Assembly: GCF_016863275.1 (NCBI RefSeq)
Contig: NZ_BOOO01000034.1
Location: forward strand, 62,001-126,000
Direction: 5' to 3'
Origin: Planotetraspora mira
GTDB taxonomy: Bacteria > Actinomycetota > Actinomycetes > Streptosporangiales > Streptosporangiaceae
DNA length: 64,000 bases
Under the pieces are notes generated by a model. It made no database searches, had not been told where the DNA came from, and worked only from the letters and a program-made list of their open reading frames with translations. Position 1 is the first letter of the stretch; each line of letters begins with the position of its first letter. The translations under genes and the position numbers were made by a program. Positions 33,135 through 53,398 of the stretch are shown here, piece after piece.

Positions 33135-33206
33135 GGGCGATTAGCTCAGCGGGAGAGCGCTTCGTTCACACCGAAGAGGTCACTGGTTCGATCCCAGTAT
33201 CGCCCA
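33135..33206 (+). tRNA. tRNA-Val (CAC), integration target
   Basis: A complete cloverleaf: acceptor GGGCGAT with ATCGCCC, D-arm TAGCTCAGCGGGAGAGC, anticodon loop TTCACAC giving CAC, T-arm GGTTCGATCC. CCA is not encoded. The 3' 43 bp from the anticodon loop onward are repeated three more times downstream as attachment sites, so the gene is the insertion target of integrative elements and stays intact at their left end. Confidence 0.96.
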
Positions 33207-33207
33207 C
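33165..33207. repeat. att copy 1 (attL, within tRNA-Val)
   Basis: A 43-bp core from the anticodon loop to one base past the discriminator (TTCACACCGAAGAGG...ATCGCCCAC). Identical copies start at 47731, 48940 and 53356. Being next to the integrase 3' end, it is the left junction of the first element. Confidence 0.93.
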
Positions 33208-33217
33208 GCAGGTCAGA

Positions 33218-33248
33218 GGCCATTTGCGGCAACGCAGGTGGCCTTTTT
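33218..33248 (+). terminator. Terminator downstream of tRNA-Val
   Basis: An 11-bp stem with G-U pairs (GGCCATTTGCG with CGCAGGTGGCC, loop GCAA) followed by TTTTT. It lies inside the element, between the tRNA and the integrase 3' end, and supplies termination for the tRNA transcript after integration. Confidence 0.8.
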
Positions 33249-33275
33249 CGATCTTCTGGGTGACTAACTGAGTGA

Positions 33276-34442
33276 CTATCGCTCCGAGTCGTCCAGGGGG
33301 AAGATCCGGTCCATGGCCTGGGCGCCTTCGAGCATTACGGGCCGGAGCTGCTTTCGGTAGACGGTCTCGGTGACCATCGTGTTGCCGTGGCCGACGAGCC
33401 GGGAGATGTGCTCCAGGGGAACGCCGTCGTCGGACAGCAGCGAGACGAAGCTGTGCCGCATCTCCCGAGGCGTCCAGTCGTCCGGGTTGATGTCCGTCTT
33501 CTTGAGAACGGTGCGGAAGGCCCGCCGGACGTTGCCCGCGTCGAGCTCAGTGCCGTGGCGTGTGGCGAAGACGAGATCGAGATCGTGCCAGTCGTCTCCC
33601 GCCCTCTTACGGGCGATCTCCTGCTGTGACCGGTGACGCCGTAACGCTTCTACGCAGCGCTTGGGAAGCGCGAGCGTCCGCCGGCTCTTGCGGGTCTTGG
33701 TGTCCCCGCCCTCCCGTACGGACCGCCAGACCATGATGGACGGCGGCACCGGGGGAGTGGCGTCCCGCTTGCCGTCCATGTCGACGTGCGACCACGTGAG
33801 CGCCCGCAGTTCCTCCGTACGAGCACCTAGAAGCAGCGAGAGCACGATGTAAGCGTTCATGTGCGTCTTCTCCGCGGCGTCGAGGATGGCCGCCGCCTGG
33901 TCGTAGTCGAGCGACTTGGACGGGCGGCCCTCCTGACCCTTAGGGATCTCGCTCAGCAGGACCACGTTCCTTTTGACCTTGTCCCGAGCCTGCGCGCGGT
34001 CCACGGCCCGCTTGAGGACCGACCGCACGTCGCGGACCGAGCGTGTGCTGAGGACCTTGGCCCTGTCGACGAGCCAGCGGTCGACGTCTTCCGCCGACAG
34101 CTCGCGGAGCTTGCGCGCGCCCAGGCACGGGATCACGTGCTTGTTGGCCAGGTGCGTGCAGGTGGTGACGGTGGCCTGGTCGCGCCCATGGAGACCGAAC
34201 GCGAGCCAGTCTTGTACGGCGTCCGCCACGGTGTAATTCGCCGGCCCGACCGAGACGCCGTCGTCGTAGTCGCGGATGATCTCCTTGAGCTTCTCCCTGG
34301 CTTCGGTCTTGGATTTGCCGCTCGCCTTGCGGACGATGCGCTTGCCTGCAGGGGTGTAGCCGACGGTCACCGAGGCGATCCAGCGCTCCCGCTGCTCGTC
34401 CCAGTGCAGGCCGCCGTCTCCTCTGCTTCGTCGTGTGGTCAA
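33276..34442 (-). CDS. int: Tyrosine site-specific integrase
   Basis: A 388-residue recombinase that inserts the element into the tRNA-Val 3' end. An N-terminal arm-binding motif (GGLHWDEQRERWIASVTVGY), a SAM-like core-binding domain (TVADAVQDWLAFGLHGRDQA) and the catalytic domain are present. Active-site residues seen are Arg in LLLGARTEELRALTW, Arg329 in REMRHSF, His352 in LVGHGN and nucleophile Tyr362 in TETVYRKQL. The usual HxLR histidine is replaced (PREMR), as in several actinomycete integrases. TTG 34442 overlaps the xis stop (TTGA). Intact, unlike the copy at 49 kb. Confidence 0.92.
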   Translation of the reverse strand: MTTRRSRGDGGLHWDEQRERWIASVTVGYTPAGKRIVRKASGKSKTEAREKLKEIIRDYDDGVSVGPANYTVADAVQDWLAFGLHGRDQATVTTCTHLANKHVIPCLGARKLRELSAEDVDRWLVDRAKVLSTRSVRDVRSVLKRAVDRAQARDKVKRNVVLLSEIPKGQEGRPSKSLDYDQAAAILDAAEKTHMNAYIVLSLLLGARTEELRALTWSHVDMDGKRDATPPVPPSIMVWRSVREGGDTKTRKSRRTLALPKRCVEALRRHRSQQEIARKRAGDDWHDLDLVFATRHGTELDAGNVRRAFRTVLKKTDINPDDWTPREMRHSFVSLLSDDGVPLEHISRLVGHGNTMVTETVYRKQLRPVMLEGAQAMDRIFPLDDSER

Positions 34443-34642
34443 TGCTGTGCCTCCTGTTCGAGTAGGGCGATGTAGTCGGTGATGGCCGAGGCGGGGATGA
34501 GCCGAGTCCGGCCCTGGGTGACGGAGCGCAGACGGCCGGATCGGATCTGTTCGTAGATCACGCTGCGGCTCAGGCTGAGCAGGTGCATGGCATCGGTGAT
34601 GCGGTAGAGCCGCCGGTCGCCGGGTGGTCCGGCTCGGCTCAT
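34439..34642 (-). CDS. xis: Excisionase-type helix-turn-helix protein
   Basis: A 67-residue MerR-like DNA-binding protein: YRITDAMHLLSLSRSVIYEQ, then IRSGRLRSVTQGRTRLIPAS and a C-terminal helix. This is the standard excisionase fold placed between rep and int in pSAM2-like elements, where it steers the integrase toward excision. Start overlaps the rep stop and stop overlaps the int start, so the three genes are translationally coupled. Confidence 0.88.
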   Translation of the reverse strand: MSRAGPPGDRRLYRITDAMHLLSLSRSVIYEQIRSGRLRSVTQGRTRLIPASAITDYIALLEQEAQH

Positions 34643-36126
34643 TCGTCCTCCCGCTCAGCGGCGATGAGGCGGGCGGTGGCGACGCGTTGCCGGATGTGTT
34701 CCGCCATGATCGCCTCGCCGGGGGAGTAGCCGGTTCCGGCGAACCGCCAGTGGCCGAGTACGAGGGTGGTCGCGTCGCCGAGGGTGGGAAGGCCGTGGCG
34801 CTGTCGTGCTTCCGCCGCGCGGTGGTCGGTTCGGGCCTGGCGGATATCGCCAAGTGTGGTGGAGAAGCGGCGGCTCTTGGTGGAGAAGTGGCCGCGAAAG
34901 CCGAGCATGTGCGCCCATGGCCGCAGCCGTAAGTCCACGAACTCAGGGCGTGCGCCCAACTCCCAGCAGGTGCGGATCATCCGCCGGGCGTGCTCGGTGA
35001 CGGGCAGCGCGTCGAGGTGAAGGCCCGGCTTGAGGCCGGTCCCGTGGCAGCGTCCGCAGGCGGCGAGAAGGGTCAGCCGTCCCCGTCCGCCGCAGTTAGG
35101 GCAGGACAGGCGATGGTCGACCGTCCCGGAGGCTTCGGCGCCCTTGGTGGCGTACTTGGCGATGTAGCCGGCCACCGCGCGTTCACTGAGTCCGTCGGCC
35201 GCCTGGTCGAGCAGGATGGGCCGGATATCGAGCTGATCACCCCAGGTGAGTGCCTGTCGGCCGAGATCGCTTGCCGGAGAGGTGATGGTGACCCGCTGGA
35301 CCGCCGAGGGGATGGCCCGCACGAGCAGGTCATGATCTGCCCAGTCCGGAGGTGTCTGGGTGCTGCCCTCCGGGCCGTCGAGGCGGACGACGGCGTGGAA
35401 GTGCACGAGCCCGCGTCGTTGGTACTCGGCGACCTTGGCGAAGGACACCCGGACGTGGCGGTTGAAAGTGCGGCGGCTCATGCCTGACTCGCTCGCGAGG
35501 GTGCGGCGGACTTCGAGGGTGAAGCGGTGCCAGAGAGCGCCCGCATGCGCCTGCCACAGGACCGCGCCCGTGTAGTCGTAGCAGTCCGGGCAGATCGGTT
35601 GGCCGAGCCGGTCATCGTTGCGTTCGTGCCGGGCGTGGCAGCCTGCCGGGAGATCATGCGCGCAACGCTTGTCCCGGTTGCGGGGACGGCAAGCCCGGAC
35701 CGTCCCGTCCTTGCCGCGCCGGGTGTGGACCGGCCCGAAGGACGGCGCCGTGAGGGTGAGGAAGACCCGAGGATGCCCGCTCACCGTCTCCGGAGTGCCC
35801 TTTCCGCCGGACAGCCCCGCGCGGATGAGGTGGAAGGTGTCGGCCTGATAGACCTGGGAGCAGGCCGGGCAAACTGAGGCCCGCCGGTTGCCGCAGGCGA
35901 CCAGGAGATGCCCAGATGGTTCGTCTGCCGTGCGGTAGCTGTGCAGAATTTCGCCCGTGCCCGCGTCGACGATGGCTGATTCGCCGGTCAGGTGGACCGG
36001 GTGGGCGCATCCCCCAGTTGCGGCGACCATCGATCGCCATCGTTCGTAGCCAGGGTCGTTGATCACTCTTGCGAGATCGAGCAGCCACCGCGGGTGCTCG
36101 TCGTGTTGTTCCTCCTTGCTGTTCAT
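34639..36126 (-). CDS. repSA: RepSA-like replication initiator
   Basis: A 495-residue initiator of the type used by pSAM2-like elements for rolling-circle replication after excision. It has zinc-binding cysteine pairs (CGNRRASVCPACSQVY, CPDC, CPNCGGRG, CGRCHG) and the segment RRGLVHFHAVVRLDGPEG, which carries the His-x-His metal site of rolling-circle initiators. KVAEY and YIAKYATKGAE are near the expected nicking tyrosines. ATG 36126 follows GAAGGAGGTGG. First gene of rep-xis-int; divergent from the GntR gene. Confidence 0.87.
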   Translation of the reverse strand: MNSKEEQHDEHPRWLLDLARVINDPGYERWRSMVAATGGCAHPVHLTGESAIVDAGTGEILHSYRTADEPSGHLLVACGNRRASVCPACSQVYQADTFHLIRAGLSGGKGTPETVSGHPRVFLTLTAPSFGPVHTRRGKDGTVRACRPRNRDKRCAHDLPAGCHARHERNDDRLGQPICPDCYDYTGAVLWQAHAGALWHRFTLEVRRTLASESGMSRRTFNRHVRVSFAKVAEYQRRGLVHFHAVVRLDGPEGSTQTPPDWADHDLLVRAIPSAVQRVTITSPASDLGRQALTWGDQLDIRPILLDQAADGLSERAVAGYIAKYATKGAEASGTVDHRLSCPNCGGRGRLTLLAACGRCHGTGLKPGLHLDALPVTEHARRMIRTCWELGARPEFVDLRLRPWAHMLGFRGHFSTKSRRFSTTLGDIRQARTDHRAAEARQRHGLPTLGDATTLVLGHWRFAGTGYSPGEAIMAEHIRQRVATARLIAAEREDE

Positions 36127-36162
36127 GACCACCTCCTTCACTTGTCGCCAACATGTAGTCCG

Positions 36163-36212
36163 AGACGTGCTACGTGTTCGCTCATATGGACATGATAGCC
36201 AAGACGTGCTAC
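36163..36212. promoter_or_regulatory. Direct repeats between rep and gntR-type gene
   Basis: AGACGTGCTAC occurs at 36163-36173 and 36202-36212, 39 bp apart (near four helical turns), in the divergent promoter region. By analogy with KorSA of pSAM2 these may be binding sites of the element's own GntR protein. Inferred from position. Confidence 0.55.
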
Positions 36213-36255
36213 CTCTTGTAAAGACATCGCTGACGAGAAGAAGGTGCATGGCGAC

Positions 36256-37095
36256 ATGGCAGAGGAGAAGGAAGCCGCCCGCTGGCGGATCATCGCCGAT
36301 CTCTTGCGCAACGACGTGCTGGAAGACCAGTACCAGCCCGGACAGGCGCTCCCCGGAGAGGCGTTCCTAGCCTCGGAGTACGCCACCTCTCGCCCCACCA
36401 TCCGCAAGGCCATCGCCCAGCTCGCCGGCGAGGGACTGCTGACCGTCGCCCACGGCCGCGGCACGTTCGTCCGCCCCAACCCCGATCGCCGGCTGATTCT
36501 CACCGGGTGGCCGGATCACGAGGACCTGCTCAGCCCGGCTTACGACCCGGGCAAGCAGTTGTGGGAACACGCCACCGTTGCCAGCGAAGCCGAACGCACC
36601 GAGAACAGGGTCACGCCCAACTCGGCCCTGTTCACGACCGCCGAAGGCAGGACAGCCGACGTCTTGGCCGTACGGCGCGGGACCATGGTGGTCTACCGCT
36701 ACGCCTACTGGCAGCACACGAAGACCCGCGCCCGGATCCAACTGTCGTCGTATCTACTGGCCGACCAGGTCGCCACGATCACGGGCGAGTCACACCGGGA
36801 GATCGACTCCTTCGTCGAGCCCGAGGACTACTACGCCCACATGGAGCGTGAGCACGGCCCGCTCCGCTGGACCACATCCGTCTACACGCGGATGCCCTAC
36901 GGCCAGACCTACGAGGACCTCGGGATGGAACCCATCGGAACACCGCTGCTGGTCGTCCGCAGGATCATGCTCAGTCACCACGGCCGCCCGCTGGAGTTCA
37001 CCGAGATCGAAGCCCCAGGCGACCGTTTCGAGGCGGCTGCCGTCAGCGATCACGATCCGGCCGAGCCGCGAGGACTTGCCGCAATGCGCGTGTAG
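36256..37095 (+). CDS. GntR-family regulator with UTRA domain (KorSA-like)
   Basis: A 279-residue regulator with N-terminal winged helix (RIIADLLRNDVLEDQYQPGQ, TSRPTIRKAIAQLAGEGLLT, GRGTFVRPNP) and a C-terminal UTRA ligand-binding domain (TSVYTRMPYGQTYEDLGM, PLLVVRRIMLSHHGRPLEFT). In pSAM2 a similar protein represses replication and transfer functions. ATG 36256 is chosen, with GAGAAGAAGG upstream; GTG 36244 is in frame. Probably keeps the element quiescent by repressing rep-xis-int. Confidence 0.85.
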   Translation: MAEEKEAARWRIIADLLRNDVLEDQYQPGQALPGEAFLASEYATSRPTIRKAIAQLAGEGLLTVAHGRGTFVRPNPDRRLILTGWPDHEDLLSPAYDPGKQLWEHATVASEAERTENRVTPNSALFTTAEGRTADVLAVRRGTMVVYRYAYWQHTKTRARIQLSSYLLADQVATITGESHREIDSFVEPEDYYAHMEREHGPLRWTTSVYTRMPYGQTYEDLGMEPIGTPLLVVRRIMLSHHGRPLEFTEIEAPGDRFEAAAVSDHDPAEPRGLAAMRV

Positions 37096-37249
37096 TGGGC
37101 TCAGAGTTTCTCTACTGGTTCAAGCGGCCCGCCTGCGGCAGCCCGCACGCGCGCCGGGCGGCCAGCGGGCCGGGCATGCGGCTCTCCGGCCGGTCCCGGC
37201 CCTCGCCATCCCGCGCGCCAAGGCGGCCTTGGTCTGGCATCCTGATCGA

Positions 37250-37855
37250 ATGGCAACTGAGGCGAACGTCACAAAACATGATGCTGATCTCTCGCAGGAT
37301 GTGTCTCGCCGACTAGAGGATCTTGGGCCGGATCTGGCGGGACACCAGGTGCTCCTGCTCCCAACCGAAATGCGCGAGGGGGTAACTTATTACAAGCCTG
37401 AAGAGGTAAATTCCGGGCGCATGGCTCGTCAGGTCTTCCTGGACGCCGCCTATCTGGATGCAGGCCAAGATCGAAGATTCCTGCATGAATATTCGGCCGG
37501 ATGGGTTCTCGATTTTGCCCTGGCTGTCGGTCAAAATCTTTCGGCCGACGGTCTTATCGCGATTGGTCGATATATTCTAGCGCGTGCAGGTTACGCTATT
37601 TCGAACAAGCGACACGATGGGCCATTGGAGGCTGTCCCAACACGCGTTACTATCGGACGTGTCGACCGGAAGAGCGACGGAACTGTTGTTGTGAGAAACG
37701 TATGCTTTGAAGGCCACTCCGAGGGTGTATCGATGGCAGTCAAGGAGTTTCTGCAGCCACTTCTCGGTTCTTCGCTGCCGCGCTCTCTAGCGATAGAGGG
37801 TGACATTGATGGTGGTGGTCAGGAAAAGGATAGGAGTGATGGCGTATCTCCGTGA
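37250..37855 (+). CDS. Hypothetical protein (cargo of element 1)
   Basis: About 201 residues beginning MATEANVTKHDADLSQDVSR. Mixed alpha/beta, soluble, with GWVLDFALAVGQNLSADGLIA and a C-terminal DIDGGGQEKDRSDGVSP tail. Base composition is clearly lower in G/C than the chromosome, a sign of foreign origin. No domain recognised. The segment on variants of NLSADGLIAIGRYILARAG might be a membrane-associated helix but is short of a clear TM. Confidence 0.6.
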   Translation: MATEANVTKHDADLSQDVSRRLEDLGPDLAGHQVLLLPTEMREGVTYYKPEEVNSGRMARQVFLDAAYLDAGQDRRFLHEYSAGWVLDFALAVGQNLSADGLIAIGRYILARAGYAISNKRHDGPLEAVPTRVTIGRVDRKSDGTVVVRNVCFEGHSEGVSMAVKEFLQPLLGSSLPRSLAIEGDIDGGGQEKDRSDGVSP

Positions 37856-38004
37856 GAAGGCGGCGAGGATCGCATACATATTCCGCTCTAGCTCTCCGGA
37901 CTGGAATTCCCATTCCTCCGCCAGGAGGGCCTGCGCGATGGCAACGCTGTCTTGTAGAAGGTCTAGAAGCTTCGACTTTAGGGAAGCGTAAGTACGGCCA
38001 ATCT

Positions 38005-41379: not shown

Positions 41380-41454
41380 TCGACATTCCATGGCTAAGTA
41401 ACGAGGGGGGCAAATGCCCTGCTTGGGCGTAGAGGAGCACTGCCCGTGTACTCG

Positions 41455-41488
41455 TGTCACGACTTCTCTTGACACATGTCGCGACTTC
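41455..41488. promoter_or_regulatory. Direct repeats upstream of PVFGQ-motif operon
   Basis: TGTCACGACTTC (41455-41466) and TGTCGCGACTTC (41477-41488) lie 22 bp apart around a TTGACA hexamer (41469-41474), about 70-100 bp upstream of the next gene. Spacing of two helical turns suggests a regulator site at a promoter; the nearby XRE protein is a candidate. Confidence 0.45.
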
Positions 41489-41555
41489 GGTCTCAATCAC
41501 AGATACCGTAACCGTGACCAAGAGAGGTTCCGGCCAGCAGCAGAGCGAGGGATGC

Positions 41556-41876
41556 ATGCAGGTCAACAACAACGGTCCCGTGTTCGGGCAGACAAACATC
41601 GACAACAGCATCACGCTCGCCCAGGCCGATTTACGGGTAGGGCTGGAACAGCTAAAGCTGTTGATTGGGGCAGGCGTCCTTCCCGAATCTGTGGGTAGGG
41701 AAGTCGTCGGCGACATGGAGGCAGGGCTCGCCCAGACTGGCGAACGTGCTAAGAATCGCCTGCAGGTGGCGGGGCGGCGGCTTAGGGAGTGGGTCGCCAT
41801 CGGGGGAGCATCCGCCGACGACGTCAATAAGATCTGGGCGGTGATCGCCGCGATATCGGCCGCCGTCGGCAGCTGA
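41556..41876 (+). CDS. Small protein with N-terminal NNGPVFGQTN motif
   Basis: A 106-residue protein. Residues 4-14 (NNNGPVFGQTN) precede a helical region (LAQADLRVGLEQLKLLIGAG, VVGDMEAGLAQTGERAKNRL). The next gene has nearly the same N-terminal motif, NEAPVFGQIN. ATG 41556 follows GAGCGAGGG. Its C-terminus ADDVNKIWAVIAAISAAVG is hydrophobic and may touch the membrane. Two bases separate it from the next gene. Function unknown; see findings for the motif. Confidence 0.7.
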   Translation: MQVNNNGPVFGQTNIDNSITLAQADLRVGLEQLKLLIGAGVLPESVGREVVGDMEAGLAQTGERAKNRLQVAGRRLREWVAIGGASADDVNKIWAVIAAISAAVGS

Positions 41877-41878
41877 CC

Positions 41879-43417
41879 ATGACAGACTCCGTGAACGGTC
41901 ACGGTCGCGATAAACCGTCCGAAGACGGTACCCGGGTCACCAATGAGGCCCCTGTGTTCGGACAAATTAACGCAGACGAGGCTCACTTCTACGGTGAAGC
42001 CCCCGTCGATCATCTCGACCTCGCCCACCAATACCTCCGACGCAGGCAGTGGGCACTAGCCGTTCGGAGCTTCGAGGAATACCTGAAGCGTGTACATGCG
42101 CTCACAGCCGAAGATTGGGTGGGGTTCGCGCTGGCGTCACTCGGAGGAAAGCGTCCTCGCGCGCACACCCCGGAGGATCTGTTTGCGATCGAATCCTGTT
42201 TGACGACTGCGCAAGAGATTGACGTCGACTGCGCCCCCGCTGCGGCCCTGCTGGCGATCGTTAATGAAGACCTCGATCATGTGTACAACCGGGTACCGGA
42301 CCCCTCTTCCGAAGGTTTCACCAGCGTGAGTGATGGGCTGGACTTGAACTGGGCGGAGAGAATTGCCACGGCGATCTCGGTGCGGGAATCTCGGACATGG
42401 CGCGCCTTGGACGCACGGGTCAACCCCGATGGTGACTCTCCCACCCAGCTTCTAAGTACTCTCACCGAGGAAGAACGGCTGGACCGAGAGAAGCGCATGA
42501 AGATCTTGCTGAATCCGGCGCCAAAGGAACCGGCGAAGCCGGAGATTGTCAACGGTGTTCCCAGTGGGTTGCTAATCGTAGGCGGCGCTTGCGTCTTGTT
42601 GCTCGCGTTATCGCTGCCCAGAGGCCTCGGCTGGGTGTGGTACTCACCGCTGCCATATCTTGTCTTCGCCGGCGCCGTCATGATGATCGTCGGAGGGCTT
42701 CGTCGTACCGGCGTCTGGCATGAGAACCGCCACAGGCGGTTAGGTTACGAGTTTGCATGCGCACAGCACCGAGAGCAGATGGCAAGGTATCGGGTCGATC
42801 TACCTTCTCAGGTTCAGGTGGAGACCTGGATCGAACGCGATGTGCAGACGATCATGGCACGGGCTTTGGACAGGCTGGGCATGGTCCTCGATGATCTGAA
42901 TGAGCGTGGACGGCTCATACGACCACTCATCATTGTGGGCCCCGCGGACCCGCCGCGCACCAAGATCGCACTGCATCCGGACGGCGGGTACTTCGCCTCC
43001 CATTACAGCGTGTTCGTGCTCTACATGACAGACCGGAAACTGGGGGCTTACCGCACCTCCCTTAATGCGACGACAGGCCAGCGGGAACCTGACGAACAGA
43101 CCAGTGAGTACCGCTACCAGGACATCGTTTCGGTGAGCGTGCGGACAAATCGTTTGGACCCGGCCTCCGATAAGAAAGGTGAGTCGTCCGGACAGGAGGC
43201 CGACTTGGCTTACGATTTTGTTGCCGAACAGCCGAAGTCTGCCCTCGCGGAGCGGTTCACTCTTGTGGTACCGGGTGATCGTTTCACTGTGACGACGATG
43301 GTCAAGAACGAGAAGGATGAGCAGCGTTCTGAGATCAGATTCTCTCAGCCCGACGAGGCCCTCGCCGCAATACGGCGGCGGATTCTCGAGACCAGCATGT
43401 CTGGTCGTAAGGTCTAG
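41879..43417 (+). CDS. Two-TM protein with TPR-like N-terminus and PVFGQ motif
   Basis: A 512-residue protein. N-terminal motif NEAPVFGQIN (residues 22-31), helical TPR-like part (DLAHQYLRRRQWALAVRSFE, 47-66), two adjacent membrane helices (about 230-246 and 256-274), then a large soluble C-terminal domain (RPLIIVGPADPPRTKIALHP, ERFTLVVPGDRFTVTTMV). The two helices with N- and C-domains on one side suggest a membrane anchor. It follows the 106-residue gene by 2 bp and shares its N-terminal motif, so the two products probably interact. No known family. Confidence 0.72.
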   Translation: MTDSVNGHGRDKPSEDGTRVTNEAPVFGQINADEAHFYGEAPVDHLDLAHQYLRRRQWALAVRSFEEYLKRVHALTAEDWVGFALASLGGKRPRAHTPEDLFAIESCLTTAQEIDVDCAPAAALLAIVNEDLDHVYNRVPDPSSEGFTSVSDGLDLNWAERIATAISVRESRTWRALDARVNPDGDSPTQLLSTLTEEERLDREKRMKILLNPAPKEPAKPEIVNGVPSGLLIVGGACVLLLALSLPRGLGWVWYSPLPYLVFAGAVMMIVGGLRRTGVWHENRHRRLGYEFACAQHREQMARYRVDLPSQVQVETWIERDVQTIMARALDRLGMVLDDLNERGRLIRPLIIVGPADPPRTKIALHPDGGYFASHYSVFVLYMTDRKLGAYRTSLNATTGQREPDEQTSEYRYQDIVSVSVRTNRLDPASDKKGESSGQEADLAYDFVAEQPKSALAERFTLVVPGDRFTVTTMVKNEKDEQRSEIRFSQPDEALAAIRRRILETSMSGRKV

Positions 43418-45329: not shown

Positions 45330-46091
45330 CTAGTGTTTGGGATTCCAGGGGGCAGGCGTCCTGCCCAGTCGATTGCATTGGGCATCGGCCTCTGCCTGCA
45401 GAATGTCATATATTGCGCCCGATAGATGTTCCACAAAAGAAACGTCTAGTCGAACTTCGGCAGAAGAGACCGGAACATGGGCTCCGCTGTGTGCGACAGA
45501 ATTGCGGACGTCCACTATCCTCCGCAGTTCCCGTTGAGGATTTCCTATAACCCTTCTTGTCAATCCAGGGATTTGGGGTGCAGTATAGTTTTGAGAAAAG
45601 TCTTGATTAATCCGATTCCATACATCGTTGACGCCTACCAGTTTTAGAAGTCCACTAACTGTATCTGGCCCGGGATTGCCACCCGTATCGATCGCATAGT
45701 CACTCCATATGCGTTTCGCAACATAGTGGTGGGCCATTCGTAGACTTTCTGAAAGTCTTACAGTTGTAGATCTCTCAACACCATGCCTTCTGCCTTGCAA
45801 TGCGGCGCTCATATTTTGTTGCACAATATGGAGTTGGACATTTTCGGGAAGATCGGTTAACTGAATCGGTGGGCTGGATTTAGAGTACTGATCAAGGGCA
45901 TATGAGATCGCGTCCCTAAGGAACTCTTCAAATCTGGCGCACAATAGCACTATGGCGGCAGACACAAAGGGCTGGTAGGTTAGAGTGTTCGGCAAGTAAG
46001 TAAGAGAAGGGTTCCGGGTCACAACCGCATCGGCCACGTCCAGGAGTTCAACGACGTCGCTTAATTGGCCCACAATCTTTCGGTATGGCAC
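45330..46091 (-). CDS. HEPN-domain RNase candidate (MAE_28990/MAE_18760-like)
   Basis: A 253-residue protein of the HEPN superfamily. The catalytic R-x4-H motif is RNSVAH (Arg196-His201) in IVDVRNSVAHSG, and an N-terminal helix FVSAAIVLLCARFEEFLRDA begins the bundle. HEPN proteins of this branch occur next to DUF262 genes and are suspected RNases. GTG 46091 starts 2 bp after the DUF262 stop, so the pair is co-translated. A/T-rich composition. Likely effector of an abortive-infection type defence, by family analogy. Confidence 0.8.
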   Translation of the reverse strand: MPYRKIVGQLSDVVELLDVADAVVTRNPSLTYLPNTLTYQPFVSAAIVLLCARFEEFLRDAISYALDQYSKSSPPIQLTDLPENVQLHIVQQNMSAALQGRRHGVERSTTVRLSESLRMAHHYVAKRIWSDYAIDTGGNPGPDTVSGLLKLVGVNDVWNRINQDFSQNYTAPQIPGLTRRVIGNPQRELRRIVDVRNSVAHSGAHVPVSSAEVRLDVSFVEHLSGAIYDILQAEADAQCNRLGRTPAPWNPKH

Positions 46092-46093
46092 GT

Positions 46094-47233
46094 TCAGCGT
46101 CCCAAAGCTCGCCGTACCATACTATGTATTAGGTGTACTCGTTCGTGAGTTATACCTGGCCTGTTTACGGTGCCACCTGGTAGAGCAAAGTCTCGATGCA
46201 AAAATAGCTCACGCATTCCTTGCTCTATCTCTCGGGCGTGAGATGCAATCTCGCTTAGGTCGAATTCTTTTATCGCCAACATCTGAGCGTCGTATACAGC
46301 TACCGAGATCATTTGCGGTATCCGATCGGTACGTGGATCCCATCGGCGAAACAGCAGGCTCCCGAAAGCGACCTGAGCTTTGTCTAGGGTGGAAAGAAAG
46401 CTCTCTCGAAGCTTGGTGAGTTCGCCGGCGTCTAGGTGTGCGCTGCGCTGCATGTACTCGTTGAGCATGTCAAAATTCGACATGCGCCTATGCGTATTCG
46501 CTTGCTGCAAGGCGAAGAATCTTAGAACTAGTTCTACGTCTCGCATCTGACGCCAGATGGAAGATTCCCTCTTATCATGTATTCCAAGGGCATTGTGGAA
46601 TTGCGGATGCTCAGAAAGCTCATTCAGGAGGTCGTTAAGCGGCCCGCGATAGGCATTGTTGCGAACCTCCTGTGCATTTAGGGATATGCCACCAGTGTTA
46701 AGTCGATGGAATACATCGTACTGAATCGTTGGATCGGAGATATTTAGAAGTATCACGGCTCGAAGGCTTGCACGGACCGAGAGTGATCGTTGAAGTGTTA
46801 AATCGAGATCATCGAATCTGAGTCCTTCTGCTTCATAAAACACTTCCAGTCCCTGTAGTGGATATTCCCCTTTGATGAACCCGTATATAGCAGACAGACG
46901 TTGCTTGCCATCAATAACGGAGTAGGTCCGATCCGGATTCTCGTTAAGATAGATCGACGGGACTGGAATGTTAAGCAAAAATGACTCGATTAGCCGAGAT
47001 TTGCGGCTCAATTCCCACCTGTCACGCCTCTGGTAGACGGCATTCAGGTCAAGAGTTTCCTCATCTATGAAACGGACGATCGAGTCTATGTTAAAGTCGA
47101 TAACTTGTGTAACCAGATCCCTTTCCGCCCGCTCCCATCGTCTTCTAACTGCTTCCATCTCTTCTTGGGATCGAACATTTTGATCTAGGTCTTCGGATGT
47201 TTCTTCAATGCTCGGCTCATCGCTCAAACTCAA
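46094..47233 (-). CDS. DUF262-domain protein, ParB/Srx-like NTPase fold
   Basis: About 379 residues with a DUF262 domain. TYSVIDGKQRLSAIYGFIKG carries the DGQQR-type motif (DGKQR), preceded by NAVYQRRDRWELSRKSRLIE and followed by FHRLNTGGISLNAQEVRNN. DUF262 domains are ParB-like and occur in GmrSD-type and other anti-phage systems. TTG 47233 is chosen because AGGAG lies 5-9 bp upstream and a promoter sits at 47270-47297; ATG 47254 is in frame but would precede that site. First gene of the pair with the HEPN protein. Confidence 0.82.
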   Translation of the reverse strand: MSLSDEPSIEETSEDLDQNVRSQEEMEAVRRRWERAERDLVTQVIDFNIDSIVRFIDEETLDLNAVYQRRDRWELSRKSRLIESFLLNIPVPSIYLNENPDRTYSVIDGKQRLSAIYGFIKGEYPLQGLEVFYEAEGLRFDDLDLTLQRSLSVRASLRAVILLNISDPTIQYDVFHRLNTGGISLNAQEVRNNAYRGPLNDLLNELSEHPQFHNALGIHDKRESSIWRQMRDVELVLRFFALQQANTHRRMSNFDMLNEYMQRSAHLDAGELTKLRESFLSTLDKAQVAFGSLLFRRWDPRTDRIPQMISVAVYDAQMLAIKEFDLSEIASHAREIEQGMRELFLHRDFALPGGTVNRPGITHERVHLIHSMVRRALGR

Positions 47234-47269
47234 AGCGACTCCTAAAAAGTTCATTTCTTGAGTATTCGT

Positions 47270-47297: not shown

Positions 47298-47730
47298 TTG
47301 CTAATTGGCAACGTATGATTCTAGCGGCATTGCTGCTGGACGGCTAGTTTTTGACGGTGCAGCTTCCCATCTTTGTCCTCAGGCTCCCGACCGATAGTCT
47401 CCCGGCCTAGGTGGCTGCGGAGGAGCGTCTCTTGGCGCGGTGGCCGAAATCGTGCAAGAAAGTGGCGCGATGTACCGCTGAGGGAGATCGCGCAGTAGAA
47501 CATCGGGCGGCGTATGGATCTCGGGATCGATGGCCGAGAGAGTGGCACGGCCCGTGTTCAACGCGTTCGCCGGCGACTTCGGCAGCCAGTCGAGTGAGGC
47601 CCGGGAGTCAGCGAGAAGTCAGCAGGACGGTTGACACTCGATCGCGCTAGAGGTCACCCATAGGTATGGTGAGCCGCGGTAGAAGGCCTAGTTGGCAGCC
47701 GTTGAGACTCCTGATCACAACCGTCGGATA
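47298..47730. other. Gene-free right end of element 1
   Basis: After the A/T-rich promoter (to about 47330), the sequence returns to high G/C and shows no frame with convincing coding character. The segment near 47600 (GTCAGCGAGAAGTCAGC) resembles the 3' tail of the degraded integrase at 49120. Probably the element's right arm plus remnant DNA. Confidence 0.45.
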
Positions 47731-47773
47731 TTCACACCGAAGAGGTCACTGGTTCGATCCCAGTATCGCCCAC
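47731..47773. repeat. att copy 2
   Basis: Exact 43-bp copy of the tRNA-Val 3' end without the 5' half, so not a functional tRNA. Right end of element 1 and left end of the next segment. Followed by an imperfect hairpin (AAGACCCGCAGAGA...TCTCTACGGGTCTT) that is nearly repeated after copy 3. Confidence 0.93.
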
Positions 47774-47890
47774 CAATCCGAAGACCCGCAGAGACCTTGA
47801 TCTCTACGGGTCTTACTGCTGTTCAGGGACACTTTCGCGGTGCCGGTCAGCCTTCGGAAGGATCATCCGAGGTGGGCTCGCATGTGGGCT

Positions 47891-48514
47891 TCACGTCGTC
47901 AGCGGGTTCGCCGGCGCTGTACGAAGTGGCTCGCCGTTGAGTTCTGTCGCTCCGGCGAGGCTCCACCACAGTTCATCGCGGACGGTCAGATACGGATGCC
48001 AGACGCCAACGGCTCCGCCGGTCTCGAGGGCGGCCGCAACGTTCGCCAGGTAGGCGCCGAGCGACGGCCAGCCATCCGAGAAGTCGCCAGGGTTGTCGTG
48101 CGGCGCCTCGCCCACTCTGGCGAATCCGGGTCCCGGCCGCTGGTCGATTACCTGCAGATCGCCATCCGAAGCCGCGAACGGTAGCCAGAGCTCGTGCCAC
48201 CACGGCTGAGCATCAGGGCCGTGCGGGGTGAAACCGTCGACGTCCTCAGCGATATCCATGCGCTCTTGGTATTGCTCGACGATGCCAGCCAGAGAAAGGA
48301 GGGGCCCTTTAGGAAGAATGTTTGCCCACTCGATCAAGCCGTTGTGGCAGCTCAGCGACTCGACAAGCTCGGGCGGAAGCGCCAGCCCTAGCGCAGCCTC
48401 AGCAGAGGCAATCCCATCCCGATCAGCCGGTGAGGCAAGCACGGTCGCGCTGATGGGCGCGAACCGGTCCAACCAGTCTTCGATCCGTGCCCATGCCTCG
48501 ATCACCTCGCCCAT
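47891..48514 (-). CDS. SMI1/KNR4-family protein
   Basis: A 207-residue protein. The SMI1/KNR4 core is seen in GIASAEAALGLALPPELVES, CHNGLIEWANILPKGPLLSL and LPFAASDGDLQVIDQRPGPG, with a C-terminal GVWHPYLTVRDELWW. In bacteria this fold is frequent in immunity proteins for polymorphic toxins and in general regulators. No toxin gene adjoins it here. It is orphan cargo of the degraded element 2. ATG 48514 lacks an obvious ribosome-binding site. Confidence 0.8.
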   Translation of the reverse strand: MGEVIEAWARIEDWLDRFAPISATVLASPADRDGIASAEAALGLALPPELVESLSCHNGLIEWANILPKGPLLSLAGIVEQYQERMDIAEDVDGFTPHGPDAQPWWHELWLPFAASDGDLQVIDQRPGPGFARVGEAPHDNPGDFSDGWPSLGAYLANVAAALETGGAVGVWHPYLTVRDELWWSLAGATELNGEPLRTAPANPLTT

Positions 48515-48820
48515 GTGGGCAGCTTAGCCACCGCGCCCGGTTCGACCTGTTACAGATTTCCATCCGTGGTCAAGCCGCATTCGGCGGACAGCCTGCCGCC
48601 AGGGGTCAGGCGGGGGAGAGGGAACTGGAGAAGGCAGCAGGACGACCCAGGAGAGGCGGCCCGCGGCCAGAGCTGCCGTTACGCAGGCCGTCGCCGTGCT
48701 CAAGGAAGCCCTGCACGGCTGAGTCAATCGTCGGTGCCGGGTCGCCATCACCGGCCTGGCACCGATCGATCACGATGAGCTGAAGTTCTGGGCGCGTGGT
48801 ACTCGGGGAGCGGCCCCCTA
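48515..48820. other. Gene-free stretch in element 2
   Basis: No supported gene. A short plus-strand frame ending VAVLKEALHG near 48720 and its antisense frame both lack recognised motifs. Ends where the arm repeat (48821) begins. Confidence 0.4.
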
Positions 48821-48982
48821 CTGAGTGACTATTTGAGTGACAACGGCCACGGACGCCCGCAGATGGAGATGGACGTCCGTGCATGGTTGGCGCAGGTCAC
48901 GGCTGCTTTTGACCCACGTGGGCGATCTGGCCAATATGCTTCACACCGAAGAGGTCACTGGTTCGATCCCAGTATCGCCCAC
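48821..48982. repeat. Element right-arm repeat, copy A (includes att copy 3)
   Basis: 162 bp beginning CTGAGTGACTATTTGAGTGA and ending in att copy 3; it aligns without gaps to 53237-53398, with roughly four of five bases identical outside the att core. The internal GAGTGACTA/GAGTGACAA repeats also occur next to the element-1 integrase stop and look like arm-type integrase-binding sites. Confidence 0.85.
48940..48982. repeat. att copy 3
   Basis: Exact 43-bp copy of the tRNA-Val 3' end, the junction of elements 2 and 3. Confidence 0.93.
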
Positions 48983-49055
48983 CAATCCGAAGACCCGCAG
49001 AGACCTTGATCTCTACGGGTCTTGTTGCTGTTCAGGGCTGGTTTCCGCGGAGCGT

Positions 49056-49510
49056 TCAGTCTGCTGCGGTCTCTCCCGAAGGTGGCTCGTGAGCCGGCTT
49101 GCCCTGCTCCGTGGTGATCGAAGTCAGCGAAAAGTCAGCGAAGGCGGCGCGAGCCCTGCCGTACCGCTCGTCTGTGCCGTGCGTGTAGAGGTTCAGCGTG
49201 GTCGAGATCTGCTCGTGCCCGACGAGCCGCGCGCATCGTTGACGGGAACCCGATCTGAGATCAGCCAGGTGGCGTAGCAGTGCCGAAGATCGTGGAACCG
49301 CAGACCTTCCCCGACATTCGCCGCGACGCACGCAACCGCCTCTGACTCGCTCGGAAAGTCCTTGCCGTGCTCTGATCCCTCCTTGTCCTGCCATACCGCT
49401 ACGAAGGCGTCGGCGCTGGGCATCAGCATGGAGCCGAGCCGACCGGCCCGCACGAACGTCGGGTGCCAGACGCGTGAGCGAAAGAGTGTCCGGCGGACGG
49501 GGCCGCCGGC
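49056..49510 (-). pseudogene. Frameshifted, truncated tyrosine integrase
   Basis: One frame gives RTLFRSRVWHPTFVRAGRLG through FHDLRHCYATWLISDRVPVN, with the catalytic HxLRH motif. Then a one-base loss near 49240 shifts to a second frame reading RLVGHEQISTTLNLYTHGTD to the stop at 49056, including His of the GHEQ box and the nucleophile tyrosine in NLYTHG. The N-terminal half is missing. Different from the element-1 integrase in sequence, so a second integrase lineage used the same tRNA. Confidence 0.85.
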
Positions 49511-49853
49511 CGTGTTGGTGACGATCTCCCCGAGGAGACCAGGCGCCTACATCCCTGTCTCTATCGCCGGTGGCGAGGACATTGCCATCCCCGACACGGG
49601 ACCAACCGGTCTCTACCGGCGTCTCGGTGAGCGCGGGTACCAGGTCGCACGTTTCGTCCAGGAATTGAGGCCCGGCGTCCTTCCGTGTCGAAGAGGCTGA
49701 GTTCCTGAATCTCACCGAAGCTCAGCAAGTCCTTGAGGTCGCTCGAATCGCGTACAGGGTTGATGACCTCGCGATAGAAAACTGTGATCAACATCTTTCC
49801 GAGTCAGCAGCGGCGGCTGTCCTACGAGCGGACAGCGAGGCAGGGGAGCAGCC

Positions 49854-50280
49854 ATGTCAGATCTTCCGCGGCACTCTGTCAGCGTCACCGCAGCTGTCTT
49901 CCATGAAGACGGACGAGTCCTTGCCATCCGCCGCGAAGACGACGGACGCTGGGTTCCGCCCGGGGGAGTGGTTGAGCTCGACGAGACCCCGGAGCACGCG
50001 GTCATCCGCGAAGTGCTCGAAGAGACCGGAGTTCAGGTCGAGCCGGAAAGTGCTGACCGGGGTCTACAAGAACATGAACCTTGGAGTCGTATCTCTCACC
50101 TTCAGGTGCCGTCCCATCGGCGGGGAACCGCGGCCGAGCGATGAAGCCCTGGAATCGACCTGGCTGACACTCGACGAGGTGAAGCAACGCATGCCTGAGG
50201 CGCGAGGTATCCGGATCATGGATGCACTTCGCGAAGACGGCCCGTTCGTGCGAGTCCACGACGGAACGCGACTGCTGTAA
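49854..50280 (+). pseudogene. NUDIX hydrolase, frameshifted
   Basis: Frame 1 starts at ATG 49854 and contains the complete NUDIX box (GGVVELDETPEHAVIREVLE plus ETGV). Near 50047-50049 an extra A in GGAAAG breaks the frame; the second frame continues VLTGVYKNMNLGVVSLTFRC to DGTRLL and stop at 50280. Rejoined, it is a normal ~140-residue NUDIX hydrolase of the small nucleotide/NDP-derivative type. Either a recent mutation or a sequencing error in a short A-run. Confidence 0.85.
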
Positions 50281-50839
50281 GAGTGTCCCGGCCCGCCCCT
50301 TCCGAATGACCAGGACCGGCATAGCTTGGCCGGAGCATCCAAGTCGCGCACGACATCCCGAGCCTGTGACGCCAGCCAAATAGGCGGGTCTCGGTGGAGT
50401 TCGACCTCAGAGGACCTTGACGGGTCGGCCACGGTTAAGGTGCTGGCCGCCGTCATCCGGACGATTCAGCAGAGGGCGCAGGCTCTAGCCCGTCCCTCAG
50501 AAATACGTCTCCATCACCACGTCGTCCGGTGACGGCACCCACGACACGTACGAGCCCGGCCCCGCTTGATATTGGCGAGCGAGAACGAGCCGAGGGCTTG
50601 GACAGTCCCGACTCTCGGGCGTGTTGGGCACGGAAAGATCATTGACATTCGTTAGGGAGGCTTACAAACTATCAACGGCGGCAGTTTCGCTGGGACACAT
50701 CCTCGGTAGTCGCAGACCTGGGAACGGAGGTCGGACCCGCCCATTGACCCGGATCCACGAGCGGCTGGACCAGTGATGGTTACTAACCGATGCAAACCTT
50801 GGCAGCCGGATCAGTCAGATAAAGATGGGAGAACTTCGC
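50281..50839. other. Gene-poor stretch before the deacetylase
   Basis: About 560 bp with no supported gene. Overlapping frames (50064-50456 minus, 50326-50532 plus) have no recognised motifs, and their codon pattern does not favour either strand. The last ~150 bp are lower in G/C and should hold the deacetylase promoter. Confidence 0.45.
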
Positions 50840-52768
50840 ATGAGATGTTTCTCTAGGGCGCGGGGTCGAGGGACACGCTTGGCTTCGCGTCTTAGCCTCC
50901 TAATCGCCACGGTCTTCACGGTTTCGTTTGTGCACGTGCCGGCATCTTCTGCGCTGGCGGCCCCGAGTCTCACGATCTCCGCAACCCACAGCCTCGCCAC
51001 ATTTCTCAAAGGACAGCCCGACAACACAACCGTGTACTCCGGAACGCTTCGGCTGAAGGTCACGAACTCCGGAGATGGCCCGACCCAGAGCGCGGTTACC
51101 GTGTCCGACGTGCTCCCGGTCGGCCTGTCGGCGCTTGTCAACAACGCTGGGTTCGGTGCCGGGCCGGTCGCCGCGTCTGGGAACGGGTGGACCTGCTCCG
51201 GCGCCACGTCCATCACGTGTACGCGCAGCGACCCATTGCGCGCGGGATCCTCCTACCCTCCGATCACGATCACCGTGAAAGTCGCCACCAATACAGCGGC
51301 ATTGCTGACCAACACCCCCACGGTTGCCGGTGGTGGGGACGAGACTCCTGGCTCCGCCACCGATTCCATCCCGGTGACGCGGGACGCCTGTCCCAATGGG
51401 TGGTCGCGGGAGGAGGCGGTGTCGTTCGCGCCGCCGGTACCGGCGATTGACTCGGGCGTCCGCAACCCTGAGCGCGCCGACGGGTGCACGCTGCTCGACG
51501 TCATCTGGAATGCGGAACCTTTCAAGAACCACGGTAGCTTTGTCTCCACCGTGGCCCACGCGACCAATGAGTTCGTCAGGGAAGGGCTCCTGTCGCCGGC
51601 CCAGCAACGCGCGATCCAAAGGGCCGCCTCACGCTCGGACGTGGGGACGAAGAACGACAACCAGATCCCCAACTCCTGCCCCAACCGCCTTGCGATCACC
51701 TTCGACGACGGGCCATCGTTCTACCGACCACAGACCCTACAGATCTTCCGTGACAACCAGGTTCATGGAGTGTTCTTCGATCTTGGCATGAGAGCAGAGG
51801 CCAACCCGCAGATCGAGAGGTTTACACGGAGCGAGGGCCACGTCCTGCTCAACCACACGTATAACCACACCGATATGAACGCGCTCTCCGACGCGGCGAA
51901 GATCGAGGAAGTGCAACACAACGAGGCCGCATTCGATGCGATTGGTGCCCCTTTCACCTTCAAGGGGATCCGAACGCCGTTCGGCAGCGCCAACACCCAT
52001 ACGCAGGAGGTCGTGAGCTCGCAGGGCTACACCTACTTCCTCACCAGAATCGAAACGGGTGCCGACTACGAGCCGGCCACGACCGCGGAGCAGACGCGCG
52101 ACTCGATCCTCAGCCAACTGCATCCTGGAGCCATCATCGGTCTGCACGATGGCCCGATCGACACGCCAGCCGGGGCCGCGACGGTGGATGCCGTGAGACA
52201 GATCCTCCCCGCGGCCCGCGCCATGGGCTACTGCTGGGGCAAGGTCGATCACACCGGCCAGGTCGTGGCCGATCGGTATGTCTCCTCCGGCAAACCCATT
52301 CCGCAGATCACCAACCCCGTGCCGTACAACTTCCTGGAACGCCCCGGCACGCCCCCGGAGCCCTGGTTCGTCGCTCCGGACCCCATAGCAATCTCCGCAA
52401 CCCACGGTCCTTCTACGTTCGTGCCGGGACAGACCGGCACATTGACGCTGACTGTCACGAACACCAGCGGCCAGCCGAGCGATCCCGATCCCATCGGCGG
52501 AAGCACGGTCACGGTACAGGACGTGATCCCAGCCGGCCTCACGGCCACGGCGGCGTCGGGTCCAGGTTGGACCTGCAGTGGATCGCGGACGAGAACGTGC
52601 ACCCGTAGCGACACTTTGGGTCCGCATTCGGACTATCCGCCGATCACGATCACTGTGAACGTAAGCAACAATGCCCCGACGACAATCGTGAACGACCCCA
52701 CGGTCACAGCTCACGGGCAAGCGTGGAAGGACCAGGCCCGTGACACGATCAGCGTTGCTCGGCCATAG
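50840..52768 (+). CDS. Secreted NodB-type polysaccharide deacetylase between DUF11-like domains
   Basis: A 642-residue exported protein. A signal peptide (LASRLSLLIATVFTVSFVHV, cut near ALA-AP) leads to a DUF11-like beta domain (LRLKVTNSGDGPTQSAVTVS, GWTCSGATSITCTRSD). The middle is a NodB deacetylase: metal and catalytic residues Asp289-Asp290 in ITFDDGPS, His339 and His343 in HTYNHTDMN, and RTPFG. The C-terminus repeats the DUF11-like domain (GTLTLTVTNTSGQPSDPDPI, GWTCSGSRTRTCTRSD). Likely removes acetyl groups from peptidoglycan or chitin-like polymers at the surface. ATG 50840 follows GGGAGA. Confidence 0.87.
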   Translation: MRCFSRARGRGTRLASRLSLLIATVFTVSFVHVPASSALAAPSLTISATHSLATFLKGQPDNTTVYSGTLRLKVTNSGDGPTQSAVTVSDVLPVGLSALVNNAGFGAGPVAASGNGWTCSGATSITCTRSDPLRAGSSYPPITITVKVATNTAALLTNTPTVAGGGDETPGSATDSIPVTRDACPNGWSREEAVSFAPPVPAIDSGVRNPERADGCTLLDVIWNAEPFKNHGSFVSTVAHATNEFVREGLLSPAQQRAIQRAASRSDVGTKNDNQIPNSCPNRLAITFDDGPSFYRPQTLQIFRDNQVHGVFFDLGMRAEANPQIERFTRSEGHVLLNHTYNHTDMNALSDAAKIEEVQHNEAAFDAIGAPFTFKGIRTPFGSANTHTQEVVSSQGYTYFLTRIETGADYEPATTAEQTRDSILSQLHPGAIIGLHDGPIDTPAGAATVDAVRQILPAARAMGYCWGKVDHTGQVVADRYVSSGKPIPQITNPVPYNFLERPGTPPEPWFVAPDPIAISATHGPSTFVPGQTGTLTLTVTNTSGQPSDPDPIGGSTVTVQDVIPAGLTATAASGPGWTCSGSRTRTCTRSDTLGPHSDYPPITITVNVSNNAPTTIVNDPTVTAHGQAWKDQARDTISVARP

Positions 52769-53236
52769 CTTCACGGGGCCAGTCCCCGGACCGCTGTAGT
52801 CGGAGCAACTGTGCAAGCGGGGTCGACCCGAAACGGTCGACCCCGCGCGGCAAGCGACGAGTCTCCTCTTCGTCGAGGGAGGCGTGGGTGAGGCGGATGG
52901 CGGGTGCCTTGAGGAAACCGGTCATGCGATGCAGCGTGCGCTATCCGTTGGTGTCTTTTAGTGGCCAGCCGTTCTGCAGGTAGACAGTCCGGTTGGCGTT
53001 GGCGGCGTCCGCACACGCGGTGATGCGCCGTGCGAGGCGGGAGGCCAGGCGATCGGTCCACTCTCGGGGGGAGGTCCAGGCGACGGCGGTTAGGTCGTCG
53101 TCGTGGTGGCGGCCTCGGCCGGGCCGAGGACGCCGCCGTAAGTGGCAAAGGGTGGCCTCGGTCGGGACTGTAGGACAAATGGCTGACAGCGAGGTCGAGG
53201 GGCGGCGCTCTCGGTGATGTCCCGCCTGCTCTTGAT
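52769..53236. other. Region downstream of the deacetylase
   Basis: No complete gene seen. It contains the short minus-strand coding fragment listed at 52941-53160 and ends at the arm repeat. Plus-strand frames here show no coding bias. Confidence 0.4.
52941..53160 (-). pseudogene. Orphan coding fragment
   Basis: A minus-strand frame with strong third-position G/C, reading DDDLTAVAWTSPREWTDRLA, SRLARRITACADAANANRTV and YLQNGWPLKDTNG to a stop at 52941. It has no clear start, so it is probably the 3' remnant of a gene. Family not recognised. Confidence 0.4.
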
Positions 53237-53398
53237 CTGAGTGACTATTTGAGTGACAACGGCGACGGACGCCCGCAGATAAGGGCGGACGCCCGTGGAT
53301 GGTTGAGCCAGGTCAGGGCAGCTTGTGACCTACGTGGGCGGTCTCACTCAGGTGTTTCACACCGAAGAGGTCACTGGTTCGATCCCAGTATCGCCCAC
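53237..53398. repeat. Element right-arm repeat, copy B (includes att copy 4)
   Basis: Partner of 48821-48982, same length and order of features. Begins CTGAGTGACTATTTGAGTGA and ends in the att core. Confidence 0.85.
53356..53398. repeat. att copy 4
   Basis: Exact 43-bp tRNA-Val 3' end, the right boundary of element 3. The following bases (GTTCAGAGGCC...GGCCTTTCGCG, then TCTTCTGAGTGACTACCG) resemble the terminator and integrase 3' end of element 1. Confidence 0.92.

Follow-up and report, generated by a model that had tools for sequence, protein, structure and literature searches.

Accumulation of integrative elements behind a single RNA gene has been described in several bacterial groups. At a Streptomyces tRNA-Arg gene, actinomycete integrative and conjugative elements (AICEs) and defective AICEs have accreted (PMC9513070), and the published description shares with the present locus successive elements of several families, identical direct repeats and decayed remnants; in the same study, a tRNA-Val gene is also reported to hold AICEs, there with a repeat of 46 nt. 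In Frankia, tandem AICEs likewise share one tRNA gene (Fean5518/Fean5534 and the three-repeat Fean6303), and were found by PCR to excise both singly and jointly (PMC3218068). Accretion of cis-mobilizable elements (CIMEs) with integrative and conjugative elements (ICEs) or integrative and mobilizable elements (IMEs) provides a further parallel, in that integrase-less remnants keep their attachment (att) sites, can be mobilised in cis and form chimeric att junctions (PMC5704250), and in Dehalococcoides many islands, some without an integration module, lie behind the one ssrA gene (PMC3146451). Here we analyse 64,000 nucleotides of the Planotetraspora mira genome (positions 62001–126000 of contig C34; hereafter the window), in which the 3' end of a tRNA-Val(CAC) gene recurs as a 43-nt att core. 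Naming the intervals between successive core copies 1–5 E1 to E4, and the DNA after copy 5 E5, we suggest that this gene is an integration site shared by different elements, that some of these have exchanged ends, and that E1 would consequently be mobilised together with integrase-less neighbours.

The locus differs from its described counterparts in several respects. The Streptomyces tRNA-Arg array holds one to three elements and a remnant, whereas five cores are present here and the interval ends come from two systems of short arm repeats (that is, repeats flanking the core); as far as the consulted sections of the Frankia report go, arm repeats and mismatched ends are not treated there. The chimeric junctions of the CIME work lie between two elements, whereas in P. 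mira whole intervals (E1 and E3) carry both systems, and the Dehalococcoides islands involve serine recombinases, a tmRNA gene and 20-bp repeats. The sections of these reports that we draw on already cover accretion, defective AICEs, CIMEs, joint excision and chimeric att junctions. We have not seen described the combination of a reciprocal end mismatch of whole intervals with an excision prediction drawn from arm repeats, and no description of the mismatch was found in the sections covered of the accretion and CIME literature searched.

Contig C34 is 228,996 bp long and belongs to a draft genome of 100 contigs (9,025,981 bases), all of which was scanned for the core at up to three mismatches. 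The core starts 2 nt before the anticodon and ends at the end of the tRNA. An earlier note on this stretch had placed four exact copies in one orientation at spacings of 14.6, 1.2 and 4.4 kb; all were found again at their coordinates (Table 1), with measured spacings of 14,566, 1,209 and 4,416 nt, and ARAGORN confirms that the first copy alone is part of a whole tRNA. A fifth exact copy lies at C34:132464 (window coordinate 70464), 6.5 kb beyond the window end, and nothing else was found at up to three mismatches in the 9.03-Mb draft genome; copies scattered widely through the genome, which the earlier note held would speak against it, are thus not seen, the sole extra copy belonging to the same array. 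The nearest other match within the window is tRNA-Val(GAC) at 22854 (four mismatches). A chance repeat is ruled out, as 43 nt recur exactly, five times, at a single locus. The right flanks of copies 2 and 3 (81% over 161 nt) and the left flanks of copies 3 and 4 (86% over 164 nt) are related ends.

The integrases are also as the note had them: an uninterrupted tyrosine integrase in E1, none found in E2, and in E3 a different one, of which the C-terminal part survives in two frames. The E3 remnant aligns with residues 260–421 of an integrase from the sister species G002 (77.7% identity over 103 amino acids and 93.2% over 59), and that G002 integrase is 23.6% identical to the E1 integrase. On C34, PF00589 is matched at E ≤ 0.001 by the E1 integrase alone. 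No intact integrase was found in E2–E5 among the subset of open reading frames (ORFs) scanned, to which the E4 and E5 gene content given here also refers, and tblastn yields fragments in E3 and E5 only; at the start of E5 stands the final portion of an E1-type integrase (97% over 67 amino acids, followed by 25 amino acids in another frame). E2, E3 and E4 have att cores on both sides and are candidate CIMEs, and several tandem cores at one target, together with relatives that have an empty site (see below), are what tandem accretion leaves.

Around this common core, flanks sort into left classes α, β and γ and right classes A and B, which carry two arm-repeat systems. Type I consists of GAGTGAC pairs 12 nt apart, at about −117/−105 of B ends and at +51/+63 (or as a single unit at +62) of α and γ ends; type II consists of AGTCAGC pairs 11 nt apart, at −125/−114 of A ends and +140/+151 of β ends. 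In 33 kb of backbone, the two heptamers occur at 0.12 and 0 per kb, respectively. Both units are not kept at every end, and one end in P. thailandica (C92:17964) is without any exact unit. The combinations found are α–A (E1), α–B (P. thailandica contig C92), β–A (F1, the first interval of the G002 array) and β–B (E3); as all four combinations of α or β with A or B occur, left and right ends have recombined. In E1 the left end is of type I and the right end of type II, in E3 it is the other way round, and given this reciprocal mismatch, intervals do not equal elements.

A motif-free test, in which the best ungapped match between two ends is compared with 300 dinucleotide shuffles, gives the same pairing, although its 17 end pairs were picked after the motifs had been seen (the heptamers themselves were picked by eye). 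Matching own ends are found in G002-F1 (score 20), G016 (17), G034 (18) and G168 (17), each at 0/300 shuffles; the left ends of the latter three are homologous to those of F1 or E1, and an intact integrase was checked for F1 only. Among weaker small elements, G227 scores 12 (3/300). In P. mira, own ends score 7 for E1 (276/300), 8 for E2 (143/300), 8 for E3 (183/300) and 12 for E4 (1/300). The left end of E1 instead matches the right ends of E2, E3 and E4 (13, 13 and 12; 0, 0 and 4 of 300), and its right end matches the left ends of E3 and of G002-F1 (15 and 0/300 in both cases).

Taken as a whole, the explanation that we favour, at a probability of roughly 0.72, comprises a shared site at tRNA-Val(CAC), accretion, swapped ends and composite excision. 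The gene would be an attachment site that AICE integrases of at least two families have in common; elements may have entered singly at the whole tRNA gene, with E1, by its position, as the latest arrival, and earlier arrivals may have decayed to integrase-less, att-flanked (that is, CIME-like) remnants. The right part of E1 (cargo and right end) was presumably replaced by that of a type II element. A type II element that had excised as a circle may, for instance, have undergone one homologous crossover with an integrated type I element, an event that would give the order I…II–core–II…I that is observed. With a type I left arm, the E1 integrase would find its best partners in the right ends of type I, which stand at copies 3, 4 and 5, and the predicted products are E1+E2 (15,775 bp; copies 1 × 3), E1–E3 (20,191 bp) and E1–E4 (37,299 bp), not E1 alone (14,566 bp). 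Given that the right end of E1 itself is type II, composite excision is predicted to carry integrase-less neighbours in cis, and, on the sequence evidence, E1 would be expected to leave the chromosome with E2 rather than alone. We offer much more tentatively, and regard as rather doubtful, the generalization that many integrase families share one core and distinguish their own elements by a short arm-repeat code, so that end exchange forces co-excision and the array acts as a cassette-exchange station.

Comparison with sister species (G001, G002, G003 and G004, the last taken as P. thailandica NBRC 104271) suggests that the contents of the array have moved. In 500-nt tiles compared with the retrieved stretches (matches below 350 nt dropped, tiles matched in brackets), the backbone at 20–33 kb of the window has median identities of 91.6% in G001 (26/26), 92.3% in G002 (26/26), 97.1% in G003 (26/26) and 86.0% in G004 (21/26). 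The corresponding values for the E4 core are 98.4% (17/23), 96.3% (15/23), 98.8% (19/23) and 97.0% (7/23); for E3, 96.6% (4/9), 98.0% (5/9), none (0/9) and 97.5% (4/9); and for E5, 98.8% (15/30), none (0/30), 99.4% (3/30) and 91.6% (1/30). Except for this single E5 tile in G004, E3, E4 and E5 medians are thus 96.3–99.4%. The left segment of E4 is matched in G002 only (98.6%, 4/4) and its right segment in G004 only (98.5%, 6/7). E4, at 17.1 kb, is a fusion at 55616/55617 of two segments that are separate in sister species, and its left segment with core copy 4 is 98.85% identical over 2,261 bp to the integrase-less interval F2 of G002. Vertical inheritance of the interior was rejected as a sufficient explanation, since most shared segments are more alike than the backbone. 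Judged by these identities, the array appears to trade segments between species.

In the sister species, E3–E5 segments sit on other contigs or in another order. The G001 order, E4–E5–E3, is a circular permutation of E3–E4–E5, as would be expected if a composite circle had re-entered by another core, although the block edges are not cores; in P. thailandica the E3 core and the E4 right end stand in opposite relative orientation to that seen here, and independent rearrangement may lie behind these orders. The earlier note had held that relatives carrying the region without att copies would count against it, and this is found in part: G001 has the E5 interior after the E4 core and lacks an att core where the two meet, but the junction holds what, read by eye, is a type I right-end scar, which makes the loss of an att site more plausible than a native region. 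In G002:C34, a core copy with one mismatch lies 90 nt after the E3 core. The earlier view of serial insertion at one tRNA-Val gene holds insofar as one site was reused, in an array longer than was thought, and needs qualification insofar as intervals do not equal single elements (mismatched E1 and E3 ends, fused E4, E3–E5 segments on other contigs or reordered in sister species). Its stack of elements of different age fits the decay of the later intervals, but segments of these intervals have recently been exchanged between species, so that age by position is not simple.

In G001, G003 and G004, the whole tRNA is followed directly by a shared flank (84% and 82% identity of G001 and G004, respectively, to G003), and the left side matches the window at 96.5% (G003), about 90.5% (G001) and 81–87% (G004); no element lies directly at the gene as far as the contigs reach beyond the tRNA, which is 2.6 kb in G001, 15.7 kb in G003 and 6.4 kb in G004. 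Among the 40 of 60 candidates scored in the P. mira genome, none matched the initial 556 nt of this native flank, and the native right flank not being found here, the empty site is defined from relatives only. Although it is shared by G001, G003 and G004, the flank right of the empty tRNA may be the left end of an element, since P. thailandica contig C92 has a copy of 445–489 nt after a core. In P. mira, a truncated right end at about 85227–85309 has no core behind it (that is, the E5 right core is lost), and a deletion or rearrangement right of the array is likely. P. thailandica, with its native-type flank after the tRNA, has five other cores (at most one mismatch) on contigs C92 (three), C100 and C80, and the left 4 kb on C92 is 94.9% identical to E1. 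G002 carries five exact cores at the same tRNA, with four intervals, one of which includes a further, decayed core-like sequence (G2:47744); the flank beyond the last core is related but more distant. Its F1 encodes an integrase, an HTH_17 (Xis-like) protein, RepSA, FtsK/SpoIIIE and GntR/UTRA proteins between matched ends, and by gene content and ends is a complete AICE.

Counting whole tRNA genes too, 88 of 200 genomes of the family sampled have at least one exact core and 18 have at least two; the maximum, five, is reached only in P. mira and G002, of the same genus. A separate collection holds at least 124 exact copies in at least 120 stretches, with 98 in a whole tRNA and 26 partial among the matches listed. 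In G120 (C82:350319-350549), a whole tRNA contains the first of two exact cores spaced 188 nt apart, and the 145-nt interval between them, which still finishes with a right end like that of an element, may represent the final stage of decay.

Several observations weigh against the explanation that we favour. In a wider own-end control (38 intervals from 24 arrays, 200 shuffles, a pass being at most 5/200; G120 copies 1–2, with only 145 nt between cores and the same DNA as both flanks, were dropped to leave 37), 16 of 37 intervals pass, 1/4 in this genome and 15/33 elsewhere. An own-end repeat is lacking in 18 of the 33 outside intervals, many of them decayed, and as it is so often lacking, the evidence rests on the specific cross-match between E1 and E3. 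The mini-element G002-F3 fails (9, 47/300; 43/200 in the wider control), and the P. thailandica C92 relative of E1 is borderline (11, 4/300; 7/200). Array G208 shows a similar reversed pairing (17, 0/200), and mixed ends may thus be commonplace where elements are stacked. Arm sites at both ends are not a requirement of every tyrosine integrase, and the mismatch of the E1 ends may be tolerated by its integrase. E1 is matched at length only in P. thailandica (94.8%, 11/29; elsewhere 72.0% in G001 (1/29), 66.0% in G002 (1/29) and 0/29 in G003), E2 is without match in each of the four species (0/2 tiles), the excess over the backbone is small for G003, and dropping tiles without a 350-nt match favours high medians. 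The array has no clean right border, since this genome lacks both a sixth core and the native flank, and the E3 and E4 core blocks in relatives are edged by points that are not cores, from which it follows that not all exchange was site-specific.

Much of this would be accommodated by plain accretion, in which each interval is one independently integrated element, decay has made the ends diverge, the mismatch is without functional consequence and E1 leaves by itself. The lack of a significant shared repeat in 18/33 outside intervals fits such a view, as do the separate and joint excision of tandem AICEs in the published descriptions (PMC9513070, PMC3218068). We nevertheless consider it improbable, although a serious competitor, given that the E1 right and E3 left ends are not random decay: they share a type II repeat (15, 0/300) with each other and also with a complete type II AICE. 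A reading in which homologous recombination or transposition shuffled older chromosomal DNA, cores included, into the intervals after E2, so that these are not elements, is less probable still. The E3 and E4 cores do lie on other contigs of sister species in blocks not edged by att cores, and G001 does have the E4 core and E5 interior in sequence with no core between; yet copies 3, 4 and 5 are flanked by element ends that are related and carry arm repeats, the G001 junction bears what looks like a type I right-end scar, and G002:C34 retains its one-mismatch core 90 nt from the E3 core. As for a mis-joining of separate loci through short repeats, drafts of about 100 contigs and a 43-nt repeat would make this conceivable, but the array lies well inside a 228,996-bp contig, its intervals are distinct in sequence and G002 independently has a five-copy array, which leaves an assembly artefact very improbable.

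Accretion is usually pictured as a queue; here, arm repeats predict a composite mobile unit and the att pairs that recombine. If the explanation that we favour is true, it accounts for integrase-less segments that still move between species, and island annotation should not equate inter-repeat intervals with elements. On the more doubtful generalization, the array would also keep non-autonomous segments, including 1.3–1.6-kb mini-elements of two genera, circulating between species.

Table 1. Features of the tRNA-Val(CAC) array and a second att family (window coordinates unless contigs are given)
Feature	Position	Strand	Evidence or remark
Whole tRNA-Val(CAC)	33135..33207	+	ARAGORN; sole whole tRNA-Val(CAC); core copy 1 is its final 43 nt, 33165-33207
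E1 left end, type I arm repeat	33255..33276	+	GGGTGAC / GAGTGAC, 12 nt apart, first unit with one change
E1 tyrosine integrase	33276..34442	-	PF00589 E 9.6e-20; 388 aa as compared; ORF reaches 34853; start inferred
Excisionase-like HTH_17 protein, 67 aa	34439..34642	-	PF12728 E 3.8e-9
RepSA (pSAM2-type) replication initiator	34639..36249	-	PF20199 E 6.7e-167
GntR/UTRA regulator	36244..37095	+	PF00392, PF07702
HEPN-domain protein adjoining the GmrSD_N gene, defence-like cargo	45330..46091	-	PF18735 E 3.4e-13
GmrSD_N / NsnA-like protein, defence-like cargo	46094..47254	-	PF03235; PADLOC NsnA E 1.8e-68
E1 right end, type II arm repeat	47606..47623	+	two AGTCAGC, 11 nt apart
Core copy 2	47731..47773	+	exact; type II right end on one side, shortened type II left end on the other
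E2, 1.2 kb	47774..48939		no integrase found
SMI1/KNR4 (SUKH) gene of E2	47891-48514	-	PF09346 E 7.9e-11; PADLOC PDC-M40A
E2 right end, type I arm repeat	48820..48841	+	
Core copy 3	48940..48982	+	exact
Broken integrase remnant of E3	49059..49543	-	C-terminal part, two frames
E3 left end, type II arm repeat	49122..49139	+	
Polysaccharide deacetylase / DUF11 protein in E3 (4.4 kb)	50825..52768	+	PF01522, PF01345
E3 right end, type I arm repeat	53236..53257	+	
Core copy 4	53356..53398	+	exact
E4 left segment	53399..55616		SDR and AraC genes
E4 left end, type I arm unit	53457..53468	+	
E4 core	55617..64000		metabolic, transport and regulator genes among ORFs tested; E4 runs past window to copy 5 at 70464
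tRNA-Pro(GGG) pieces	contigs C1, C2, C40, C44, C49, C51, C56, C58, C63, C67		anticodon read to name tRNA

E1 combines a tyrosine integrase and an att core at the tRNA 3' end with an excisionase-like HTH_17 gene and a RepSA replication initiator, as AICEs do; the GntR/UTRA regulator we take, by its position, to be KorSA-like. No Pfam match to an FtsK/SpoIIIE-type transfer gene was found among the subset of E1 ORFs scanned, and a tblastn search with the FtsK protein of G002-F1, covering the 166,996 bases between the window start and the contig end, had no match at E ≤ 0.01. Lacking a recognisable transfer gene, E1 is called an AICE derivative rather than a full AICE, and its transfer would need a helper AICE, such as F1 of G002 at the same site. 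At its right side, the GmrSD_N/NsnA-like and HEPN genes are likely to form a phage-defence pair. Two adjacent ORFs at 41454–43417, which had no Pfam or PADLOC match, share a similar stretch near their starts (VNNNGPVFGQTNIDN and VTNEAPVFGQINADE), which may be an amyloid-type signalling motif.

Hairpins follow all five cores on inspection; their folding energies (−21 to −30) fall around the backbone mean (−24.6, s.d. 6.2), and nothing is claimed for a common terminator as the reason for element left ends. Other repeats, GTACAGCAGCGAAGTACAGC and GGGAGC pairs, surround the same core in the wider control, and arrays with this core in other actinomycetes (G203, G208, G211, G213, G219 and G220) offer GTACAGC, GGGAGC and ACGAACA pairs as candidate codes.

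Mini-elements of about 1.5 kb, with cores on both sides and lacking an integrase, recur in two genera. One in G002 (C29:126443-128018 region) spans 1,533 nt with exact cores on both sides and no integrase found, and is colinear end to end with counterparts in one other genus (77–78% in G068, G120 and G227; 76% in G154), and G193 and G177 hold partial versions; vertical descent of a single insertion is possible within the other genus. Remnants in G001 (C9, 94%) and G003 (C46, 89%) lie beside cores with at least one mismatch and away from the tRNA contig. The G002 mini-element carries a DUF6247 gene and a small ORF, for which no family match was found with either the 86-aa version from G002-F4 or a 67-aa version; 43 of 341 family genomes match at E ≤ 1e-20, many by the tRNA end only.

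A 31-nt 3' piece of tRNA-Pro(GGG) occurs 13 times at up to two mismatches on ten contigs of the P. mira genome, and the eight pieces inspected comprise one whole tRNA (C1) and seven partial copies. In G001, G003 and G004, one more such piece follows the empty tRNA-Val at a distance of about 570 nt, and in G002 one follows the last core at about 620 nt. We regard the tRNA-Pro(GGG) pieces as a second, dispersed att family.

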